From positions 186,070 to 250,069 of the forward strand of contig JACEEZ010002764.1 of the NCBI GenBank assembly GCA_016584305.1: a stretch of DNA of 64,000 nt. Direction: 5' to 3'. The translations under genes were made by a program, and so were the position numbers. This document shows positions 8,670 through 63,414 of the stretch, in pieces. Below the pieces are notes generated by a model. It was not told the DNA's origin and did not search any database. It was given only the letters and a program-made list of their open reading frames with translations. The stretch comes from Chionoecetes opilio. Its lineage: Eukaryota; Arthropoda; Malacostraca; Decapoda; Majidae. The stretch's first letter is position 1, and each line of letters starts with the position of its first letter.

Positions 8670-9333
8670 CTAGCCGCAAAGCCGCCCTCCGGGCGGACTT
8701 TTTGGCTAGCTCCTGCGGAGGGCTATTGGTGGGCCGGCCCACCACCTGTGTTTGGTGGGCCTTCGGCCCACCAAACACAGACTCTCCAGATAGCCCCTTC
8801 TAACTTTCCTGAAATCATGGATGTAGAAATGTATGTATTAACGCCAACCCATTCACATCACCCCCAACCCATTCACTCACCCATTACCCATCACCCCCCA
8901 CCCATTCACTCACCCATTACCCATCACCCCCCACTCATTCACTCATCCATTACCCATCACCACACACCCATTCACTCACCCATTACCCATCATCCCCCAT
9001 CTATTCCCTCAGCCATCACCCCCCACCCATTCACTCACCCATCACCCCACACCCATTACCCATCAACCCACCCATTCCCCATCACCCTACATCAAGGTTT
9101 CCTTAATTCTCGCAACCCACTTTTTTTTCACAATTATCGCTAATAGGCTGCTAAAAATAAAATTAAAAAAGTGATCGGATCATCTCATAAGTGGGCTTAA
9201 AACCTTCCCCTGGTCAACCTGATTCCAAAAATGTGGTATATGATGGGATTCCGCCACGGGGGGCGGAACCTATACCACACACACACACACACAGACACAC
9301 ATACATACACACACACTTTCGCTTATATTATTA
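8670..9333 (-). mobile_element. Non-autonomous Helitron with internal minisatellite (copy 1)
   Basis: Read on the minus strand it ends in a GC-rich hairpin (GTCCGCCCGGAGGGCGG), then TTTGCGGCTAG followed by T, the Helitron 3' pattern. The 5' side has TAATAATATAAGCGAAAGTG, lacking the first TCTA. The middle is a degenerate minisatellite built from GGGTGATGGGTAATGGGTGA-type units. It abuts copy 2 at 9333/9334. No Rep/helicase is encoded. Confidence 0.75.
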
Positions 9334-10197
9334 CTAGCCGCAAAGCCGCCCTCCGGGCGGACTTTTTGGCTAGCTCCTGCGGAGGGCTATTGGTGGGCCT
9401 TTGGCCCACCACCTGTGTTTGGTGGGCCTTCGGCCCACCAAACATGGACTCTCCAGATAGCCCCCTTCTAACTTTCCTGAAATCATGGATGTAGAAATGT
9501 ATGTATTGCCCCCACCCATTCACTCACCCATTACCCATCACCCCCCCACACCACTTCCATCACCCCATTACCCCATCACCCCCCCACCCATTCACTCACC
9601 CATTACCCATCACCACCCCACCCATTCACTCACTCACCATTACCCATCACCTCCCACCCATTCACTCACCCATTACCCATCACCACACACCCATTCACTC
9701 ACCCATTACCCATCACCCCCCACCTATTCCCTCACCCATCACCCATCACCCCCCACCCATTCACTCACCCATTACCCATCACCTCCCACCCATTACCCAT
9801 CACCACACACCCATTCACTCACCCATTACCCATCACCCCCCACCTATTCCCTCACCCATCACCCATCACCCCCCACCCATTCACTCACCCATCACCCCAC
9901 ACCCATTACCCATCACCCCACCCATTCACTCACCCATTACCCATCACCCTACATCAAGGCTTCCTCAATTCTCGCAACCCACTTTTGTTTTCACAATTCT
10001 CGCTAATAGGCTGCTAAAAAAAAGAAAAAAAAAAGTGATCGGATCATCTCATATATGGGCTTATGACCTTCCCCTGGTCAACCTGGTTCCAAAAATGTGC
10101 CATATGAGGTGTTTGCGCCACGGGGGGCGGAACCTATACCACACACACACACACACACACAGACAGACAGACACACTTTCGCTTATATTATTATAGA
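9334..10197 (-). mobile_element. Non-autonomous Helitron with internal minisatellite (copy 2)
   Basis: On the minus strand it starts with TCTATAATAATATAAGCG at 10197 and ends with the same hairpin and CTAG at 9334, bounded by A on the left and T on the right as expected for insertion between A and T. The minisatellite (about 9510-9950) is longer than in copy 1. The long open frames through it are His/Pro/Ser/Thr repeats produced by the satellite and are not genes. Confidence 0.8.
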
Positions 10198-10570: not shown

Positions 10571-18395
<7,825 letters not shown>

Positions 18396-33404: not shown

Positions 33405-33673
33405 TCATCAAGTTGTATTTTACTGAGGGAACACTGAGGCCTGAGGGACACTGGCATGGTCCCGTCTCCATATTTACATTATTTTATTTTGCTTCCTTAG
33501 TGCTTAGTAACAAACCACCGGCTAACACCCGACACCCATTCACTGCTGGGTGGACAGGGGCTCGAGTTTTAAGAAGACAGCCCATTTTTCTCCGCTCCAC
33601 CCGGGGATCGAACCCGGGACTTCTCGGTTGTGAACTGAGCGATCTAACCACTACACTACACAGAGTACCCGGT

Positions 33674-53017: not shown

Positions 53018-53866
53018 TTCAAAAAGGCCTATGACTCAGTGAAAAAGAAGAAGTTAATTGCTACATTAATGAAATATAAAATTGACAGCAGGATAATAGA
53101 ATGTGTAAAAAATATATATGAAAAAGATAAAACAAAAATCAAGTTAAGGAAGGATAAGGAAATAGAGATAGAAATAAGCAGTGGCATTAGACAAGGCTGT
53201 ACAGGGTCAACCACACTTTTCAAAATGCTAACCTACATGATCATAGACAAACTGGAAGAAAATGGATTAGGATACAAAGATGAAATAATAAAACTAAATA
53301 CCCTATTTAATAACAAGAACTATTTCAAGAACCATAAGAAAAACTGTATTAACAAGGCAAGAAAATTAGCAAACATGACTTATAGCATAATATTGAAGAG
53401 CTGCAACAGACTATTGGTTGGAAAAACCTATTGGAAGTCAGTAGCATTACCATCTATATTACATGGAGCAGGAGTAATAAATTACAACAAAGAGATGGAT
53501 AAACTACAAACAATAGAAAACACTTTCACAGGACAATTCTGGGAGCAAGAGGCTACGCAACACTGGCAGGCATGAGAGGGGAAATGGGAGCATCTCTGGT
53601 CAAGACAAGAATCATGAAGGCAAGGTTGGGATATGTCAATGGAGTGATGAAGGAAGAAAGAAATGAATTGATAAGAAGAGTAATGGAGGAGACAAAAGAT
53701 GATCAAAAAGATAAATGGATGAAAAATTGCAAGTCATATATGATGGAAATTGGAAGTAGTCTTGAGAAATTGGGAAGAATGAAAAGAAGAAATTGAATGA
53801 GAAGATAGAGGCATGGGATACAAAACAGTGGAAGGAAAAAATGGAGAAAAAATCAAGCCTGGTTAT
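53018..53866 (+). mobile_element. LINE (5' part), interrupted by a DNA transposon
   Basis: 5'-truncated reverse transcriptase: KAYDSVKKKKLIATLMKY, then SGIRQGCTGSTTLFKM near 53180. The segment that should hold the FADD catalytic box is missing after LNTLF near 53310. Downstream comes SVALPSILHGAGVINYNKEM and the region to KSSLVI at 53866. A frame break lies near 53796. The coding sequence resumes at 56889 after the transposon. Confidence 0.7.
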
Positions 53867-56800
53867 TAGGGTACGCCGTAGGTCCAATGAAAAGTGAAAT
53901 ATAGATTATTTCGAATTTGGCAGGGTGTTTTCTTATGTAAAATTGAATTTTAAGGGTGGTTTGTCCTCTTCAACTTTTTGGTTTGAGCACTTCTTGCTAT
54001 GCAAAAAGGAACTTTTATATTTATATGCAAAACATAGCTTAGCCCGATAAAGTAACGGCTTCATTTGCACCTATCATCAATTCTTGATCGTCTTTTTCAG
54101 GATGGCTTCTCCTTGTAACCAAGGGGTCGAAGCCCGCAACTAGACAGAGCTCTGGATCCAAGTTGGCCGCCTTTGTTGGCGGTGGACGAGAGTTTGCTGA
54201 GAGTGAGGTGCCTACGTATCGCGGCGTGATGAAGAGGGGAATCCTTCTCCAAGAACTCAGCGGCATCCGGGAGGTGTTGCAAGCGGGGGTACCCAGTGAG
54301 AGACATTGCGAAGGATCTGACCCCCATGGTGCTTGCCCAGTGGAAGAAATCAAACGCCCAGTTTGCACCTCCAGTGGTTGTTATTGACCGGTCCGTGACC
54401 AGAAGGATAGATCATTTTTGGAAGAAGGTTAGTGAAGTGGTGAGAGACAGAGCAACTAAAGCAGTAAAGGAATTCGTGGAGAAGAATATGGACAGGCTGT
54501 TTGACATAACGGCCTGCCCTCACACGATCTTCCTCTGCAAGGACCAGGAATCCCACTGCTCCAACCCCCAGCTGTGCCACGCGAGAGCACACGTGCAGTG
54601 TGACTGCCCCCTGGCCAGCAAAGTCCCTACTTTAGACCTGGAGTAGCTGTACTACCAGAGGATCAAAGTTGGGGAGGAGAGTGCAATGATGATGACAGGG
54701 GTAGACAAGAATGAGACGCATAGACAAGTGAAAGCAGCAAAGAGAAAGCAGTTGGAAGAGGAGGCTAAGCTGAAGAAGCAGAAGCAGAAAGATGAAAAGG
54801 TCAGACGTCTTGAGCTGCAGGAGCAGATGTTCCTGGGCCAGGCCGAAGATCACCAGGATTCTGAGGATGGGACGGAGGAGTCGTTCACCCTGCCACTCAG
54901 AGGAAAGAGGCAGGAGCAACAGGAGGCTGCCATACTGGTAGACCAACTGCTCAGGGAGTGGCTGGGGTGGGTCCCTGGCACCCCTTGTGATGCAGTACTT
55001 GGACAGGCCAGCTGCAAGAAGAAACACAATGCCAGTCCGGAACCTGGCGCTGGCAAGCATCCGGTTCGACGTTCCGTCCACTGCTGCTGCTGCCTTGGCT
55101 TCTGGATTCCTCCAGGACCTTATCGCTGACGGCCACCTCTCTCCAGACATGTCGTACCTGGTCTGCGATCCTAACAAGCTGAGGAGGGCCAGGCAGGATG
55201 CCATGGCATCGGCCAGGGACCTTGACCAGGGGAAGCACCAGGGTACCAAAATAGTTGGATTGGGTTACGATGGGAGGAAGGACAAGACCAGGGCGATGGT
55301 GCCCGACAGCTATGGGAAACTGCACCCAAGGTTGATCAGGGAGGAGCATGTGTCAGTGACAGAGGAGCCATCTGGAAGGTACCTTTGGCACTTTGTACCA
55401 GAGGACCCGGTGCCATCTGAGAAGCCTGCGTTCAAGGTGGCTCAGGCTCTCTATGATCTGCTGGTGACATACGACTCGACCGACTCACTGATCATACTGC
55501 AAGGTGACTCAACTAGGGCCAACACGGGGTGGAAGGGTGGTACTCACGCCCATTTGGAGAAGATGCTGGGACGCAAGCTCTTCTGGAGTATATGCGTTTT
55601 GCACACAAACGAGTTGCCCCTGCGCCACCTTATCACCAGCATCGACGGGCCTACCTCATCTGACACTGGCTTCACGGGTCCAGTGTGCAGTCTGCTGTCC
55701 AGTGTGAATGAGATGCAGTACAACGCAGAGTTCAGAGGAGTGCCAGGCGGTGAAGATCTCACGGAGATACCGGAGTATATCCTGGTCAACATGTCCACTG
55801 ACCAGCAGGTCTCCTACCAGCTGGTCCAGGCTGTGAAGCGGGGGTTTCTTCCGTCCGAGCTGCAGGAGATCAAGTGTGGCAAGGTGTCCCACTCCAGATG
55901 GCTCACCACAGCCCAGTCGCTCGTGTACATGTGGACCAGAAAGCATGGACTGACTGGCAAAGAACTGAACACCCTGAAAATCCTAGTCAAGTACTGCCTG
56001 CAGATGTACTTTAAACTCTACTACGACATCAAGGTTCACCACAGACTAGAGGACGGCCCCAAGCACATCCTCACGCAGCTCAGAGTGATGAGGTCGCAGC
56101 CCAAGAAGGTCCAAACAGCTGTGACCTTCTACGTGCGGACAGGAGCATGGTTCGCACACTCAGAATGTGTCCTCCTCTTGCTGATGGCGAGTCAGAGTGA
56201 GGACGACCGCAGGTTCGCCGTGACCCAGATTTTGAAGCTGAGGGCTGGCGAGGAGTATGGGGACACCAGTGTAAGACCTCGCATCACACCCAAGCTGAAC
56301 TTGTCAGCCACCAGCTTGCAGACACTGATCAGCTGGCAGCCTGGCCAGGTGCACGAGCCGGCATTCACCTGTTCACTGTCCGGGGATCAGATCCAGGAGA
56401 TCCTGGTCAAGCCGTACGAGGTTCCGGAGTTCTCTATTCACACTCAGAGCACCGAAAGAGTCGTGAAGCAGGTGACAGAGGCTGGGGCAGCAGGCCAGAG
56501 ACGGGTTCATCCGGGCTCGGGCCCACCACTGGGAGACCATGCCCTGCTTCAGGTCTAAGAAGGACATGATGGACACGTTCTAGGCCAACGTAGAGGCTGT
56601 GACACTGTGATGTAGTGCCTGATGAACCAACTGATCAGAAAGAGTTTACCACGCTAGTCATTTGGAACTCATATTGGTGCATGATGCAATAAACAGGACC
56701 AACCGGACACTGCGTACTCATTTAAGCATTATTCGATAAGGGTGCAATATAAAAGTGCGATTTTGCATAGTAGGAATTACTCAAATGCAAAAATAGATAG

Positions 56801-56888
56801 AGCTAACATTGTCTTAGAATGCCATTTTACATAGGAAATTGGCATGCCAAAGTTGAGAAAAAGAATTTTTGTTATACGGCGTACCCTA
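53867..56888 (+). mobile_element. Complete 3,022-bp DNA transposon, hAT-like ends, uncharacterised transposase family
   Basis: Perfect 14-bp inverted termini TAGGGTACGCCGTA (53867-53880) and TACGGCGTACCCTA (56875-56888) are flanked by perfect 8-bp duplications CTGGTTAT at 53859-53866 and 56889-56896. Excising the element and one duplication rejoins a LINE reading frame (KSSLVI to YREYKEQ). An 8-bp duplication and TIRs starting TAGGG suit the hAT superfamily, but the encoded protein is not a standard BED/hAT transposase. Confidence 0.85.
54130..56583 (+). pseudogene. Transposase-like protein of an uncharacterised family, frame-damaged
   Basis: The frame begins around FVGGGREFAESEVPTYRGVM (54170), shifts near 54290 into RDIAKDLTPMVLAQWKKSN, then has a Cys/His cluster CPHTIFLCKD...HVQCDCP (likely zinc-binding), an in-frame TAG at 54644 and a Lys/Glu coiled coil. 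It shifts again near 54970 into a 523-residue frame (54987-56558). There GLGYDGRKD (D95), IILQGDSTRANTG (D174), CVLHTNELPLRHL and STERVVKQVTEA (E490) suggest an RNase H-type DDE core. A last shift near 56500 gives RDGFIRARAHHWETM and the true stop at 56583. AATAAA lies at 56688. Homologues I recall are unnamed proteins in arthropods, Hydra and molluscs. Three shifts and one stop imply a dead copy or sequence errors. Confidence 0.7.
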
Positions 56889-58700
56889 CTGGTTATATAT
56901 AGAGAATATAAGGAACAAATGGGAGGAATGGAAAAAATGTATGATAATTATAGACCAGAGTCAACATTACTCTTTAAACTCAGAACTAACAGCCTTGAAC
57001 TGCAGGACAGAAGGAGACACACAGATGGCGACACAAAGTGCCCAGTGTGTGGGGCACAGAATGAAGACCTAGAACACTTTTTACTACAATGTCCGGGCTA
57101 CAATATTGAAATAAATAAATTACAGAAATTACAGCAGCCGTATAATGAAAATATAAATGAAATAATAGGAAACATATTATTCAACTTTGAAAACCCACAA
57201 GAAATAGAATTCACCAGAGATGTCTTGTTCACCTTTTGGCGGAAGAGAGGAAATAGGTTAAAAGAACTTAACACTCAGCAGTAACACCACAATCAACAAA
57301 AGGAATAAAGTTGCAGGAAACCAAAGCAGGGGTGCCGTTGATAAGGCACTATACCCAAAACACCATCGGATCGGATCGGATTTGTGTCTTCCTCTTCACA
57401 CTTCTGTCCTCTCCACCTGATTATTCTCCCCCTTTTCACTTATTCTGTTCGTCTCCTCACTCGACCTGTTTTCCCTTTTATCTTTTTTCCACCTGAATCA
57501 TGTCTTGAAAGTCTTTGTTGTTGTCCAGCACGTCACTTTGCTGCTGTGCTACACGTCCTGCTGTCCATTTCCGTCCCCTCCTTGGCGCAACAGCAAAACA
57601 AAAAGGGTTCGCCTTGACAGTACCAGTTCACCATAATGACCGTCGCTTGTCATTCTCATGTTTTTCCTTCTATTCCTCCTCACCTTTTTTTCCTCCTCTA
57701 TATATTAGCTTGTATTCTTCCTCACTTAATATTATCTAATTATTATCATTCTATTATCTTCCCTACTCATTTTTCTCTTATTTGCATGTTCTCCCCACTC
57801 GTTTTTTATCTTTCCCACTCACTTGTTCATGCCGTCCACTTTCCTTCTTGGGGCAACAGGGCCAAGCAACAGCGAGTGTTCGTTTTGGCAGTACCAGTTA
57901 CCACAAAGACTGGCGTTCACAAAGAATATCATTCACAATAGAAGAAAAAAAATCAATAACGCCAGGGGTAAAAATGGAATGGGTTTGATAAAAAATGTGC
58001 ATGAGTAACAGCTTCTCTTTAACACACACGTTCGGAAATGGCTGGGTGGAAAATTGGATATGACAAAACGAAAAAGATAGAACGTTTTGAAAGGTTTAGA
58101 GACCAAGCCTTTGCGTTGTACATAAAATACCAAAAAATTATGTTGATTTTGATATGCAACAGAAGCAAAAAAAGTCCCGGATTCCCTGACTGCAGGAACA
58201 GCGAGGAAAGTTACGCCTTACTATAATAGGTCTTCCGTCCTTACCAAATCTTGCCTCGTCCCCTAAACGCTTTCCGATCCTCCTCCCGACTTCCCTTATC
58301 ATATTTCCCTACCCCAACCTTTGCCTTCAATTACCCAGCCTCACCCTCTCCCTTACCTTACCCTCGCCAAGTGGCCTTCCTGGCGTGCGGGGCCAAACGA
58401 GATGAAACATTTTCATAACGGCGTTTTTTCATGACCGTGTTTGAATTTGTGCTGAAAAATTGAAGCATTTTTTTTCCTCTGCTACAACCACGCGAGAAAT
58501 GTTGTTTTGAGACCTCGCTCTACCCTCCCTCCTTTTTGTTCGTTCCTTTTTTTCTTTCCTCTCTCTTCCTTCCTGTCCTCCCTCCCACCGTCCCTGCCTT
58601 GGGCGAGCGGTGGTCGCAGCACAACTCATGATCTCAATAATGGCGAGTACAGTGATTCCCCCCGGTAATATCCCACCAATATCTCAGAAAGGCTCCCCCC
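56793..58700 (+). repeat. Direct duplication, unit 1 (1.94 kb period)
   Basis: Matches 58730-60640 over its whole length at an offset of about 1,939-1,947 bases. It starts in the last ~95 bases of the transposon, runs through the LINE 3' end and then non-repetitive sequence. Differences are mostly one- or two-base indels at short runs. Confidence 0.9.
56889..57379 (+). mobile_element. LINE (3' part) with CCHC-like C-terminus and ATCGG tail
   Basis: Continues the LINE of 53018-53866. It reads YREYKEQMGG, STLLFKLRTNSLELQ, then CPVCGAQNEDLEHFLLQCPG (a C-x2-C-x8-H-x4-C knuckle) and stops at 57284. The 3' end is a CATCGGATCGGATCGG tail. Confidence 0.75.
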
Positions 58701-61286: not shown

Positions 61287-61725
61287 GTATATCTTTCTTC
61301 TATCTATCTATATTAATAAAAGCGAAAGTGTGTCTGTCTGTGTGTGTGTGTGTGGTATAGGTTCCGCCCCCCGTGGCGCAAACACCTCATATGGCACATT
61401 TTGGAATCGGGTTGACCAGGGGAAGGTCATAAGCCCCTTATGAGATGAATCGATCACTTTTTTTTTTTTTTTTTTAGCAGCCTATTAGCGAGAATTGTGA
61501 AAACAAAAGTAGGTTGCGAGAATTGAGGAAGCCTTGATGTAGGGTGATGGGTAATGGGTGAGTGAATGGGTGGGGTGATGGGTAATGGGTGTGGGGTGAT
61601 GGGTGAGTGAATGGGTGGGGGGTGATGGGTGATGGGTGAGGGAATAGGTGGGGGGTGATGGGTAATCTATAATAATATAAGCAAAAGTGTGTCTCTCTGT
61701 CTGTCTGTCTGTCTGTGTGTGTGTG

Positions 61726-62365: not shown

Positions 62366-63414
62366 TGGTATAGGTTCCGCCCCCGGTGGCGCAATCAACT
62401 CATATGGCACATTTTTGGAACCGGGTTGACCAGGGAAGGTTTAAGCCCAATTATGAGATGATCCGATTCTTCTTTTTTTTTTTTTTTTTAACAGCCTATA
62501 GCGATAATTGTGAGAAAAAAAAAGTGGGTTGCGAGATATTGAGGAAACCATGATGTAGGGTGATGGGTAATGGTGTGAGTGAATGGGTGGGGTGTGGGGG
62601 TGATGGGTGAGTGAATGGGTGGGGGGTGATGGGTTGGGGGTGATGGGTGATGGGTGAGGGAATAGGTGGGGGGTGATGGGTAATCTATATTAATAAAAGC
62701 GAAAGTGTGTCTGTCTGTGTGGTGTGTGTGTGTGGGTATAGGTTCCGCCCCCGTGGCAGAACACCTTCATATGGCACATTTTTGATGGTGATGGGTGGGG
62801 GTGTGGGTGGATCTCTGGGCTGGTGGTTTTCTGAGGGTCAATCGGGTGAGTGATATGGGTGGGGGTGGAGGGTGATGCGGTGATGGGTATGAGGGAATAG
62901 GTGGTGGGGTGATGGGTAACTATAATAATATAAGCAAAAGTGTGTCTCTCGTCTGTCACTGTCTGGTGTGTGTGGTTTGTGTGTGTGTGTGTGTGTGTTT
63001 GTGTTGTATAGGGTTCCGCCCCCGTGGCGCAATCACCTCATTATGAACATTTTTGGAACCGGTGTTGAACCAGGGGAAGGTTTAAGCCCAATTATGAGAT
63101 GATCCGATAACTTTTTTTTTGTTTTAGCAGCCTATTAGCGATAATTGTGAAAAAAAGTGGGTGCGGAATTGCAGGAAAACCTGATGTAGGGTTGATGGGT
63201 AATGGGTGAGTGAAATGGGATGGGGTGATGGGTAAGGGGGTGGGTGATGGGTGAGTGATTGGGACTGGGGGGTGATTGGATGGGTTGGGGATGATGGTGA
63301 TGGGTGATGGTGTGAGGGAATAGGTGGGGCGTGATGGGGTAAGGGGTGAGTGAATGGGTGGGGGGTGATTGGGGTAATGGTGAGGAATGGGTGGGGGGTG
63401 ATGGTTTAAAGTTG

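Follow-up and report, generated by a model that had tools for sequence, protein, structure and literature searches.

The window examined here is a 64,000-nucleotide stretch of contig JACEEZ010002764.1 from the snow crab, Chionoecetes opilio, and it contains a 3022-bp DNA transposon (positions 53867-56888) inserted in a LINE, with the remains of a transposase gene between its ends (Table 1). The terminal inverted repeats (TIRs) are perfect over 14 bp, and exact matches to this 14-mer occur in the window at the two element ends only. The 8-bp target site duplication (TSD) is also perfect, so that the ends and duplication described in the initial annotation hold to the base. Beyond the TIRs, the ends show an imperfect, gapped inverted relationship over about 165 bp, with an alignment score of 106 (maximum of 41 in 300 shuffles, and 127 in one of 300 random window pairs). 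The motif ATGCAAAA, a candidate for the sub-terminal repeats that hAT transposases bind, occurs four times within the two 230-bp ends.

Table 1 Features of the transposon and its insertion site (window positions)
Feature	Position	Strand	Basis
Left target site duplication, CTGGTTAT	53859..53866	+	sequence
Left terminal inverted repeat, TAGGGTACGCCGTA	53867..53880	+	sequence; end common to other copies
Left sub-terminal imperfect inverted repeat with ATGCAAAA-type motifs	53897..54021	+	alignment
Transposase coding piece 1 (residues 9-58 of the L018 relative)	54124..54273	+	tblastn
Transposase coding piece 2 (residues 62-290, other frame; TAG at 54644-54646)	54281..54967	+	tblastn
Cys/His cluster (C-x-H/C ... 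C ... C ... C ... H ... C-x-C), proposed two-zinc DNA-binding head	54515..54607	+	sequence, conservation; zinc binding putative
Transposase coding piece 3 (residues 290-797, catalytic core, 97% identical to L018)	54969..56492	+	tblastn
Codon of first proposed catalytic Asp (D95; D386 of P0004)	55269..55271	+	alignment
Codon of second proposed catalytic Asp (D174; D466 of P0004)	55506..55508	+	alignment
CxxH motif after second Asp	55593..55604	+	alignment; motif meaning from an extract of PMC3706591
Arg-Trp motif	55896..55901	+	alignment
Codon of proposed catalytic Glu (E490; E782 of P0004)	56454..56456	+	alignment
Transposase C-terminal piece 4 (residues 799-831, other frame)	56482..56580	+	tblastn
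Right sub-terminal imperfect inverted repeat	56746..56870	+	alignment
Right terminal inverted repeat, exact reverse complement of the left	56875..56888	-	sequence
Right target site duplication, CTGGTTAT	56889..56896	+	sequence

The host LINE surrounds the element at window positions 53018-57284. On the left it codes for part of a reverse transcriptase (RVT_1, E 3.9e-7), and on the right it gives a weak zf-RVT match (1.2e-4, below the family cut-off). When the flanks are joined with a single TSD copy, one LINE frame is open across the site, and all 40 scored genomic matches to the joined 190-bp empty site (from 115 candidates) run unbroken across the junction at 90–95% identity; the initial annotation had stated that removal of the element restores a LINE frame. 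The LINE thus has at least 40 empty paralogues in the genome that are 90–95% identical at the insertion site.

The transposase coding sequence of the window copy is divided into four pieces by three frame changes and interrupted by one in-frame TAG; its open C-terminal frame covers 538 amino acids (54942-56555). Copy L018 retains an 831-residue ATG-to-stop frame, from which the window copy differs at 61 of 3018 aligned bases and by six indels, and several more genomic copies have frames of more than 830 residues in which the match is free of stops. The window element is a dead, non-autonomous copy.

Other copies were sought with the protein in the 1.94-Gb assembly (20,818 contigs), which yielded 11,861 first-look candidates. 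The best 80 of these were scored and, the window apart, are 92–98% identical. Fifty-one of the 80 were examined (the window, 40 long stretches and 10 small junction windows), and their ends were located by likeness to those of the window element. Both ends are present in 40 of the 51 copies, comprising 34 of 41 long stretches and 6 of 10 small windows. Seven long stretches are without a recognisable end (five left, one right and one both), and four small windows, one of which reads N, yielded no left end. The pairing of the protein with defined termini proposed in the initial annotation is therefore seen in 40 copies and not in the other 11; different termini were shown in none, with no search aimed at such termini. 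Flanking sequences beyond the ends are unrelated among copies except in two pairs, one in an AT repeat and one at a duplicated site (L051 and L059, whose shared flanks reduce the 40 junctions to 39 sites). Because the flanks are unrelated and duplications are present, the ends are true boundaries of the element. Four copies of about 2385 bp (L045-L048) have one common internal deletion and the same ends; exact 8-bp TSDs are found in two of them and 7 of 8 matching bases in a third, and the deleted form has therefore probably been mobilised itself.

The 40 junctions were compared with the model N1-N7 + P + N8 / element / N1 + P + N2-N8. Exact clean 8-bp TSDs were observed at 14 junctions and clean TSDs with one mismatch at three. 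The consensus is nTnnnnAn, which is the target preference given for Hermes in an extract of PMC10368747: among 13 near-clean cases, position 2 is T in 11 and position 7 is A in 12. Seven junctions carry exact scars (five left, one right and one on both sides), and five more fit a scar with one mismatch. In each exact scar, two or three inserted bases, the reverse complement of the TSD bases adjoining that end, separate the element-adjacent TSD base from the remaining TSD. Among 1560 mismatched left/right pairs used as a control, there were two clean exact fits, six clean one-mismatch fits, six one-mismatch scars and no exact scar. A nick offset of one base explains the six one-sided scars, and offsets of 0, 2 and 3 explain none (control fits at offsets 0, 1, 2 and 3: 1, 0, 1 and 0 of 1560). 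If one mismatch is allowed, the scar count rises to 12 of 40, two of which are doubtful: the right end of the two-sided fit at L029 lies in a separate piece about 1.2 kb off, and the L046 junction lies inside an AT repeat.

Palindromic scars centred one base outside the element are also described for Ac/Ds, a hAT system, in the part of PMC1978519 available. At a scarred end, the flank was presumably cleaved and sealed into a hairpin, which then reopened and was joined back to the element; scars beside retained elements may derive from one-ended aborted excision or from re-capture of an element that had been excised. Inserts resembling scars flank the element on both sides at L067 (exact), L012 and L033 (one mismatch each) and L036 (two mismatches), which suggests that both ends were cut and the element was put back in the same orientation. 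The scars could instead reflect an extended terminus (ATT) of a subfamily, chance or assembly error. Several of them do read ATT, and the AT inserts (L026, L037 and the left side of L067) are self-complementary, so that their orientation is not readable; at the left end of 23 unclean copies, moreover, a direct insert fits three and a reversed insert one, versus five for the reverse complement and none for the plain complement. We note that AT cases make up at least two of these three direct fits. Every insert that is not self-complementary, namely TTG (L018), GTC (L031), GT (L039), CAG (L043) and AG (L067, right side), equals the reverse complement of bases from its own TSD as read on the opposite side of the element; the loci differ, and the control produced no such exact fit. 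An ATT subfamily was rejected, since the inserts vary and match each site's own TSD, and we regard an origin of the scars other than from hairpins as very unlikely.

The transposase belongs to a large protein family. A search of 5.8 billion proteins returned 270 relatives at E <= 0.001 (120 listed), and a profile search at E <= 0.01 returned at least 77, among them proteins of beetle, moth and fruit fly at 28–32% identity. Named matches, among those listed, are mostly from the snow crab. Most relatives are nameless, and those with names are called 'hypothetical', 'uncharacterized' or 'unnamed', as previously recognised, apart from a few that are fused in gene models to unrelated domains. P0007, P0121 and further Chionoecetes opilio gene models carry transposase pieces as parts of host genes, including one model with protein kinase domains and one called 'Chitinase domain-containing protein 1'; these are likely gene-model fusions with the transposon.

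An alignment of 54 sequences shows no variation at D386, D466, C495, H498 and W597 (P0004 numbering) and conservation of at least 90% at E782. The core candidates D95, D174 and E490 of the initial annotation (D110, D189 and E505 of the 538-residue frame) correspond to D386, D466 and E782, and this conservation supports their choice; judged from conservation and a predicted fold, they would act as a catalytic D-D-E triad. The Cys/His cluster and coiled coil reported together with this core are both present, but they lie in other frames than the core, a point that the initial annotation does not make, in a copy broken by the TAG and the frame changes. In the crab-type branch the cluster consists of C134, C/H136, C141, C148, C154, H159, C162 and C164, and most distant members retain the outer CxC ... 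CxC only. The head may thus have two zinc sites, one of which would be missing from most of the distant members.

The predicted fold is RNase H-like. By VIA-align its best match is the housefly transposase Hermes, over the core including the insertion and in two models, with Hermes scoring well above ISCth4. Retroviral integrases and IS256 rank below Hermes by VIA-align and were rejected as the nearest structural relative. In the prediction, the first strand holds D386, D466 comes immediately behind strand four, and E782 stands where a late helix begins. The RNase H fold anticipated in the initial annotation is thus predicted, and the clustering of the acidic triad is putative.

hAT elements are defined in an extract of PMC3942097 by a length of 2.5–5 kb and TIRs of 10–25 bp, and the present element, at 3022 bp with 14-bp TIRs, lies within both ranges. 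Like Hermes and other hAT elements, it combines an 8-bp nTnnnnAn target, short TIRs and a size of 3 kb with a DDE core predicted to contain a large helical insertion, a CxxH motif after the second Asp, an RW motif and a Glu starting a late helix. The scars point indirectly to a flank hairpin formed after a nick one base outside the element. Because target, scars, size, ends and fold agree, the element is very probably hAT by mechanism. Shared ends, 8-bp TSDs, the conserved triad and the predicted Hermes-like fold likewise support the original proposal of a DNA transposase family, possibly a divergent hAT branch, in which catalysis would follow from the triad. Overall, we consider it highly likely that this is a cut-and-paste DNA transposon of hAT mechanism with a Hermes-like transposase of about 830 residues, represented in the window by a non-autonomous copy. 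This enzyme, with an RNase H-like DDE core and large insertion predicted to fold as in Hermes, would presumably bind the element ends through a Cys/His head that replaces the BED finger. Its nick would fall one base beyond the element end, the flank end released in this way would attack the other strand to give a flank hairpin, and the element would insert at an 8-bp nTnnnnAn target. The mechanism is already known.

Several observations weigh against this assignment. Neither a clean TSD nor a scar accounts for 11 of the 40 junctions (ectopic recombination may lie behind some of them), the copies studied are the best protein matches and not a random sample, and the active-site geometry is putative. 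The best PDB match by Foldseek is the P element (E 6.4e-5). By sequence, moreover, the protein is not hAT. Pfam scans of 31 + 25 aligned sequences detected no hAT, BED or THAP family at E <= 1 (matches were scattered and weak, best E 0.0085), and the hATC dimerisation domain (PF05699), which Hermes carries among its precomputed domains, is absent from all of them at the same threshold. No zf-BED match was found, and the Cys/His spacing differs from that of a BED finger; the absence of a BED finger and of known hAT sequence blocks had been noted in the initial annotation and is confirmed by these scans. Comparison by hhalign with a profile of 29 hAT transposases gathered with Hermes gave no significant match (E 0.4 and 0.13, the latter over 26 unrelated columns), and the core-only score of 18.5 falls inside the controls (up to 22.5 in 40 column shuffles, and 19.9 for the reversed profile). 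The non-significant alignment at E 0.4 pairs D386, D466, CxxH and W597 with D180, D248, CxxH and W319 of Hermes. NCBIfam gave nothing convincing for four proteins scanned; of two sequence searches of the PDB, one was empty and the other gave seven weak matches, all to chains with no relation to the protein, the best of them (E 0.0028) to a poly-Gln stretch. A pattern scan of viral_contigs with A1 matched 20 stretches and no relative.

The element differs from Hermes and hAT, then, in the lack of sequence-detectable homology and of an hATC match, in carrying 7–8 clustered Cys/His residues with a coiled coil instead of a BED finger, and in a protein of about 830 residues versus 612. A hAT-like mechanism without sequence signal therefore places it on a deep branch beyond the searched family libraries, inside or beside hAT. 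It is possible, at rather less than even probability, that this branch is a superfamily in its own right within the broad DDE + C/DxxH group (hAT, P, Kolobok, MuDR, Dada and IS256), sister to hAT and using the same chemistry. The missing similarity to the hAT profile and to any Pfam family, the non-BED head and the Foldseek top ranks of the P element and ISCth4 (IS256) would fit such a superfamily, whereas the VIA-align ranking of Hermes speaks against it, as do the 8-bp nTnnnnAn TSDs and one-base-offset hairpin scars, which are as in hAT. ISCth4, of the IS256 family, is prokaryotic and shorter and has the lower structural score.

A P-element-type transposon would share the RNase H-like core, the Foldseek matches (6p5a, E 6.4e-5; 6pe2, E 9.6e-5) and a TSD of about 8 bp, as given for the P element in an extract of PMC3706591. 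By VIA-align, however, Hermes ranks first and the P element is not among the 50 rows listed (which is no exclusion), and no THAP or P-type Pfam match was obtained. The cut of the P element leaves a long overhang, unlike the nick one base outside the element that the scars indicate. Such an origin is highly improbable. For a Zisupton/KDZ-type transposon the chances seem slighter still: an 8-bp TSD is recorded for Zisupton and a Dileera family in the available part of PMC12730594, and the comparison with this group (Kyakuja, Dileera, Zisupton) covered the TSD, whereas the Hermes-like predicted fold and the hAT target consensus speak against it. The Dada superfamily, with TSDs of 6–7 bp and small-RNA-gene targets according to the same extract of PMC3706591, does not fit, as the element has 8-bp TSDs at varied sites.

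Among top matches in the open-licence literature, neither a name for the transposase branch and its head nor a report of scars beside retained elements was found. Repbase or Dfam may already name the family; the main text of PMC10454600, on decapod repeats, is without the term 'hAT'. The scars resemble a Ds element with a 598-bp inverted repeat beside its 3' end (extract of PMC1978519), a proposed hairpin-derived inverted sequence with the element retained, but that case is one plant locus with a long inverted repeat, whereas here scars of 2–3 bases occur at several natural sites. We tentatively suggest, as a possibility that falls short of probable, that crustaceans and insects harbour a superfamily-level sister of hAT, missing from the searched family libraries and with a two-zinc head that is not BED, together with fossil traces, across the genome, of hAT-type hairpin intermediates next to elements that stayed in place. 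If so, excision often starts at one end or at both and is then reversed as the element is joined back in. The scars allow the flank hairpin and its one-base offset, otherwise biochemical observations, to be read in an assembled animal genome, and they allow the frequency of aborted excision to be counted. The same analysis assigns a function to an abundant family of 'uncharacterised' arthropod proteins, and shows that a transposase overlooked by sequence profiles can be placed from structure together with the anatomy of its element. It also matters for annotation, as crab and insect gene sets hold transposase fragments as genes.

Elsewhere in the window, related minisatellite arrays occur on both strands at 8847-9949, 16803-17062, 61542-61642 and 62583-62681, with units of 33 bp and longer built from ACCCATCACCC-like words. 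A tRNA-Val (cac) is predicted on the - strand at 33592-33667, in repeat-rich surroundings.
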